Below are positions 54,038-54,132 of a stretch of DNA of 64,000 nucleotides, in pieces. The stretch covers positions 1 through 64,000 of the forward strand of contig JANXLU010000024.1 in assembly GCA_025354985.1 (NCBI GenBank), in the 5' to 3' direction. The notes under the pieces were generated by a model that saw nothing but the letters and a program-made list of their open reading frames with translations, did not search any database and was not told where the DNA came from. Origin of the DNA: Chloroflexota bacterium. Lineage in GTDB: Bacteria; Chloroflexota; Anaerolineae; J036; Brachytrichaceae. Every line of letters begins with the position of its first letter. Position 1 is the first letter of the stretch. Position numbers and translations under genes: made by a program.

Positions 54038-54066
54038 TATGTTTGCCTGTCCTTTTTATTGATTGT

Positions 54067-54132
54067 GTTCACCAAAGCACGAGTTGAACCGGGACTCCAG
54101 GCTGCACGGTTGGGGTGAACTACCCGTCGTGC
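54067..54132 (-). promoter_or_regulatory. Possible H-type pseudoknot in the ahcY leader (riboswitch-like)
   Basis: In the leftward transcript, six elements occur in this order: GCACGA (54132-54127), GTTCACC (54120-54114), AACCG (54111-54107), CGGTT (54091-54087), TCGTGC (54082-54077) and GGTGAAC (54073-54067). The first pairs with the fifth (6 bp), the second with the sixth (7 bp) and the third with the fourth (5 bp). All pairings are perfect. The first two helices interlock as a pseudoknot with a nested hairpin. It ends about 12 bases before the ribosome binding site. The topology resembles the SAH riboswitch, but the core sequences of that class are not recognisable. Confidence 0.5.

Follow-up and report, generated by a model that had tools for sequence, protein, structure and literature searches.

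The ahcY Locus

The window, that is, the whole stretch of 64,000 nt that was analyzed, derives from a member of the Chloroflexota family referred to here as f1, of which 28 genomes were examined and whose named members are Candidatus Roseilinea, Thermoflexales or Anaerolineae bacteria. Its minus strand carries ahcY, which encodes S-adenosylhomocysteinase, and, separated from it by a gap of 115 nt, the gene of a PfkB-family kinase. This upstream neighbor is probably co-transcribed with ahcY. The features of the locus are as follows.

52775..54037, minus strand: ahcY, S-adenosylhomocysteinase (TIGR00936, 639.5 bits against a cut-off of 497.6; Pfam PF05221 and PF00670)
54050..54055, minus strand: AAAGGA, the likely ribosome binding site of ahcY, from its sequence and position
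54153..55097, minus strand: PfkB-family kinase gene, nearest to nucleoside kinases (PF00294; best NCBIfam nucleoside kinase model below its cut-off)

An earlier note made from the window had described three helices in the ahcY leader, in the order A-B-C-C'-A'-B', and had read them as an H-type pseudoknot of the S-adenosylhomocysteine (SAH) riboswitch kind that masks the ribosome binding site. All three helices are indeed present on the minus strand and are perfect: GCACGA (54132-54127) pairs with TCGTGC (54082-54077) in A, GTTCACC (54120-54114) with GGTGAAC (54073-54067) in B, and AACCG (54111-54107) with CGGTT (54091-54087) in C, with B' ending about 11 nt 5' of the ribosome-binding-site-like AAAGGA (54055-54050). 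Among 20,000 dinucleotide shuffles of the leader, 45 contained the exact 6/7/5 topology and 1,555 an H-type pseudoknot of any 6+6 kind. The 6/7/5 arrangement in the window is thus uncommon, but it was chosen post hoc. Folded without pseudoknots, the window leader does not exceed its shuffles in stability (z = 0.23) and by itself lends no support.

A Three-Way Junction in the ahcY Leader

A search with the leader DNA in 60 relatives gave short matches, the best of which clustered directly upstream of f1 ahcY genes. Comparison of these leaders reveals that the conserved fold is a three-way junction, composed of two helices, P1 and P2, and an almost invariant hairpin, P3. In the window, its parts are the following.

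54074..54143, minus strand: whole conserved element (match to covariance model R1, 58.6 bits; the window leader, L001, is among the nine sequences from which R1 was built)
54136..54140, minus strand: P1 5' strand CACGA, outside the range of the earlier note (covariation, alignment columns 3-8 with 53-58)
54128..54132, minus strand: P2 5' strand GCACG, part of the former A (three pairs change on both sides)
54109..54127, minus strand: P2 interior and loop, variable in length and sequence (possible apical hairpin GGGU/ACCC, 54125-54122 with 54116-54113)
54104..54108, minus strand: P2 3' strand CGUGC (covariation with the 5' strand)
54089..54103, minus strand: near-invariant core AGCCUGGAGUCCCGG (leader comparison)
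54101-54089, minus strand: hairpin P3, CCUGGAGUCCCGG, within the core
54078..54082, minus strand: P1 3' strand UCGUG, the former A' (covariation with the 5' strand)
54114..54120, minus strand: 5' strand of helix B, GUUCACC, a possible pseudoknot strand (p = 0.018 in the window; other leaders at chance)
54067..54073, minus strand: 3' strand of helix B (B'), GGUGAAC, a possible pseudoknot strand (complementarity to B)

The core is kept in 13 f1 leaders, which comprise 12 distinct element sequences, and the bulge or mismatch position of P3 is U, A or C and never G, which would close the hairpin. The flanks of the core differ among the leaders in sequence and length, and P1 and P2 recur in them. 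In genus g6, P1 is formed by ACACAAGC with GCUUUGUGU or by CAAGC with GCUUG, and it is weak in two leaders, L008 and L009. Outside the window P2 takes the forms GCAGG:CCUGC, GCAUC:GAUGC and GCUU:AAGC, and its loops range from about 12 to more than 100 nt.

Two leaders also contain palindromes of another kind. The L006 leader (genome G012) has at about 1300-1420 an apparent insertion in the P2 loop, a long perfect hairpin (CCGGAAGCGACATACATCGGCGAAGCCGGTGTATGTCGCTTCCGG) that resembles a small mobile palindrome, the element being otherwise intact. In L002 (G003) an extra palindrome of about 55 nt (GAATTCACTGTCTGTCATCAAGC...GCTTGATGACAGACAGTGAATTC) lies between the element and ahcY; L003, from the close relative G002, lacks it at the same place, which points to a recent small-hairpin insertion in G003.

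The relation of the three-way junction to helices A, B and C can be traced strand by strand. The outer helix starts at 54140, beyond the range first described; A' corresponds to the 3' strand of P1, and the 5' strand of A to the 5' strand of P2. At homologous positions in 12 related leaders, 2-5 of the 6 pairs of A and 0-2 of the 5 pairs of C are kept, so that neither helix is conserved. Helix B may add a pseudoknot that joins the P2 loop to the tail, as its complementarity in the window suggests. Analogues of B in genus g6 have 7-8 bp (UUCGAUC with GAUUGAA or GGUCGAA; p 0.17-0.40 against shuffles), the tail strand varying with the pairing preserved, and L002-L006 give no signal of such complementarity between P2 loop and tail. 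Hence, although its helices exist in the window and their exact topology is rare in shuffles, the A-B-C pseudoknot is highly improbable as the conserved structure, given the loss of A and C in the relatives, the chance level of B in the other leaders and the lack of a match to the SAH covariance model (see below). The comparison of related ahcY leaders that the earlier note had proposed did uncover a conserved, covarying RNA, but not one that retains A and C.

Covariation of P1 and P2

The covariation of the helices was assessed on an alignment of 12 sequences in which the P2 loops were trimmed by hand. Standard pairs make up 91% of the pairings, and in five pairs both partners are changed. 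The alignment has a covariation score of 0.235, compared with 0.092 +/- 0.020 in shuffles (0/500 as high), and sliding the partner strand by 1-3 columns lowers it to 0.098 or less. Because the counts of double-change pairs and of pair types are not clearly above those of the shuffles (124/500 and 75/500), the signal rests on the cells paired and on the score. RNAalifold, supplied with no structure, recovered P1, P2 and P3 from the trimmed alignment and P2 and P3 from the untrimmed leaders, which makes the latter two independent of the hand trimming. P3 itself lies outside the reach of a covariation test, as it is nearly invariant, and its support is sequence conservation. Since the members represent about seven lineages, the independent events are few, and cross-pairing of P1 strands between lineages is mildly informative, the group-A lineages having similar P1 strands. 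Collectively, these data make it very probable that the element is a real conserved structured RNA.

Two explanations that dispense with an RNA structure were weighed against the same alignment. In the first, the leader would encode a peptide with a conserved QPGVP segment that acts on ahcY through translation or stalling. The corresponding frame, CAG CCN GGA GTC CCG, is open in 13/13 leaders, and of the three core positions that vary, two are third codon positions. However, the leaders share neither a start codon nor a start context, the lengths and stops vary, L008 and L009 carry a non-synonymous change, and the residues flanking the segment are not conserved. In the second, the site would be a DNA operator for a transcription factor, recognized as the imperfect palindrome CCTGG-AGT-CCCGG. 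The core does form an imperfect inverted repeat, and there is a precedent on the same gene, as SahR, an SAH-responsive regulator of the ArsR type, controls ahcY in Proteobacteria through a 20-bp palindrome (PMC4239095). Against this, the base that would perfect the palindrome never occurs in the core, and each genome has a single copy of the element, with neither a regulator nor a second target. Neither explanation accounts for the covariation of P1 and P2, in the case of an operator across loops of about 12 to more than 100 nt, and for this reason we consider an operator quite unlikely and a leader peptide, if anything, slightly more so.

Distribution and Association with ahcY

Covariance model R1 was built from nine of the 13 leaders; the scores of these nine are therefore not independent, whereas absence elsewhere is. 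R1 locates the element upstream of ahcY in 13/28 f1 genomes, in one copy each, with E values from 6e-12 to 0.0095, the weakest match being that of G012 with its long insertion in P2. All 13 strong or motif-bearing loci lie immediately upstream of ahcY. Two additional weak f1 matches (L095 and L094) were rejected as further copies, both lying inside coding sequence, in genes that from their translations we take to be uroporphyrinogen-III methyltransferase-like and peptidase-like, respectively. In the f1 members that lack the motif, no degenerate copies were seen at E < 0.9 with filters off. Outside f1, R1 gave no match at E <= 0.01 in 396 genomes of the class and none at E <= 0.003 in 400 genomes of the phylum, a sample that overlaps that of the class (stricter filters in both).

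A wider scan, with an exact pattern of core plus P1 3' strand that would miss diverged cores, returned 37 stretches from 84,980 genomes of bacteria and archaea. Of these, seven are the element upstream of ahcY, all in f1. The other 30, among them every stretch from other phyla, archaea and phages, fall inside open frames, each 176 codons or longer and none of them near ahcY, and were rejected as copies of the element. One open frame with the core pattern, about 259-269 codons long, is common to gut Firmicutes and viral contigs (L108, L122, L124, L127, L134, L135 and L136); this frame is a conserved coding sequence unrelated to ahcY.

On a tree of AhcY, the pattern of presence requires four changes and is compatible with one gain, in a clade of 18 members, followed by three losses. 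Several loci of the family depart from the arrangement in the window. In its genus, a diverged second ahcY paralogue, about 65% identical and without the RNA element, occurs in G001 (contig C5, L076) and in G002 (contig C315, L078), in the latter alongside a canonical copy. In G013 (L017, 1107-1481, plus strand) the spacer between pfkB and ahcY lacks the element and holds a short nucleotidyltransferase-like open frame instead.

The element lies between two co-directional genes in 11/13 members. An intercistronic position fits a riboswitch and an element for RNA processing or stability equally well. An element of the latter kind, which would set the relative amounts of ahcY and kinase made from a common transcript, or a site for a regulatory protein, is the main rival to a metabolite sensor. 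The evidence of structure and conservation is identical for the two. However, ahcY retains the element in two genomes, G017 and G026, in which no kinase gene was found in the 1.5 kb upstream; in G017 the closest clear ORF on that side runs in the opposite direction. The element thus tracks ahcY rather than the kinase gene and is not simply a kinase/ahcY spacer element.

Comparison with Known RNA Classes

To our knowledge, a single dedicated class of SAH riboswitch exists; SAM/SAH RNAs, in addition, bind both S-adenosylmethionine (SAM) and SAH. The 4227 models of Rfam 15 were run on the window at gathering score and on the leader regions at permissive thresholds, and none of them, including SAM-I, SAM-II, SAM-III, SAM-IV, SAM/SAH, SAM-VI and SAM-Chlorobi, recognizes the element, either in the window or in ten leaders. 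With E values allowed up to 10 for the window and 5 for the ten leaders, the SAH riboswitch model, RF01057, gave no match at the element; it also gave nothing over its cut-off in 60 relatives, a search made with stricter filters in which no control genome passed either, so that its positive control is weak. The idea, raised in the earlier note as one possibility, of a structured RNA outside the known SAM and SAH classes is borne out by a fold that is conserved in the relatives and has no Rfam match.

Comparison with individual classes shows both similarities and differences. The element shares with the SAH riboswitch the gene, ahcY, the location in its leader and, plausibly, the ligand. The topological likeness, in contrast, is lost with the A-B-C pseudoknot: the element is a three-way junction with an invariant hairpin, to which the SAH covariance model finds no match. 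The SAM-Chlorobi motif (RF01724) is likewise a lineage-restricted leader RNA of SAM-cycle genes with an unproven ligand, found upstream of metK and ahcY (PMC2864571); it differs in occurring in Chlorobi and on metK too, and its model has no match at the element. The SAM/SAH riboswitch (RF01727) resembles the element in its narrow lineage range and single SAM-cycle gene context (PMC2864571) but lies upstream of metK in Rhodobacterales, and its model again finds no match; it is, moreover, an H-type pseudoknot (PMC7367207), as opposed to a three-way junction. SAM-I (RF00162) does not match the ahcY leader but occurs at other loci in 27/28 f1 genomes, which shows that these bacteria carry SAM-cycle riboswitches. 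The genome of the window, G000, has SAM-I riboswitches over the Rfam cut-off at G000:C73:95420-95524 and G000:C19:114621-114729, both on the minus strand, and one of them shares the contig of the window, past the window's end.

The literature searched makes no mention of the element, with subscription journals poorly covered, where an earlier description may exist. Neither ahcY nor Chloroflexota appears in the main text of two large RNA-discovery surveys.

The Ribosome Binding Site and the Output Step

The end of the element lies 35-176 nt upstream of the start codon, depending on the genome, so that a model in which the aptamer itself simply covers the ribosome binding site does not hold throughout. 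Predictions of accessibility are discordant between genomes as well. When the element was forced to fold, the mean unpaired probability of the ribosome binding site rose from 0.46 to 0.90 in the window, from 0.51 to 0.92 in L012 and from 0.43 to 0.68 in L008; it changed little in L004-L007, L009-L011 and L013 and was lowered in L002/L003. The masking envisaged in the earlier note therefore does not extend to the group as a whole. In genus g6, 8-9 bp can form between the ribosome binding site and the P1 3' strand with its U-rich extension, at the edge of chance, which is suggestive of sequestration by this strand in that genus only. Overall, the forced-folding predictions give no consistent expression platform across the leaders, a point in favor of a protein-binding or processing element.

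A Candidate Riboswitch of the SAH Cycle

Our best reading of the element is that of an undescribed, lineage-restricted cis-regulatory RNA of ahcY in f1 Chloroflexota. The helices first noticed in the window were thus correctly observed and their structural interpretation was mostly wrong, and the idea of an undescribed regulatory RNA before ahcY was largely right. Riboswitches are generally recognized by covarying helices, strong conservation of the core and placement in the leader of a metabolically related gene, and the element shows all three. Its restriction to a single gene family and its extensive near-invariant core fit an aptamer. Further points that favor a riboswitch are that SAH-responsive regulators of Proteobacteria have ahcY among their core targets (PMC4239095) and that 27 of the 28 f1 genomes have SAM-I, yet none has an RF01057 match over the cut-off. 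From these comparative data, we put the probability that the element is a riboswitch of the SAH cycle at about 0.5. A structured leader RNA that binds a protein or directs processing, and senses no metabolite, is a serious alternative, to which we give appreciably less credence.

As a riboswitch, the element would respond to an SAH-cycle metabolite, with SAH the most plausible ligand, and would adjust the production of S-adenosylhomocysteinase accordingly. Binding of the ligand would stabilize P1 and keep its 3' strand off the ribosome binding site, as the predictions for some genomes would allow, and the freed site would raise translation of ahcY, making this an ON switch. More tentatively, and at somewhat less than even odds, the element may represent a second natural class of SAH-sensing (or adenosine- or homocysteine-sensing) riboswitch, with a three-way junction and an invariant bulged hairpin as its architecture, that arose once in Roseilinea-like Chloroflexota carrying SAM-I riboswitches.

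The ahcY leaders of the f1 lineage are apparently unannotated, with no match in Rfam 15 and no entry in the literature searched. If the riboswitch reading is true, they offer a small candidate aptamer with a defined core to test, and RNA-based sensing of SAH would have arisen more than once, as the RNA on this gene would bear no structural relation to the known class.
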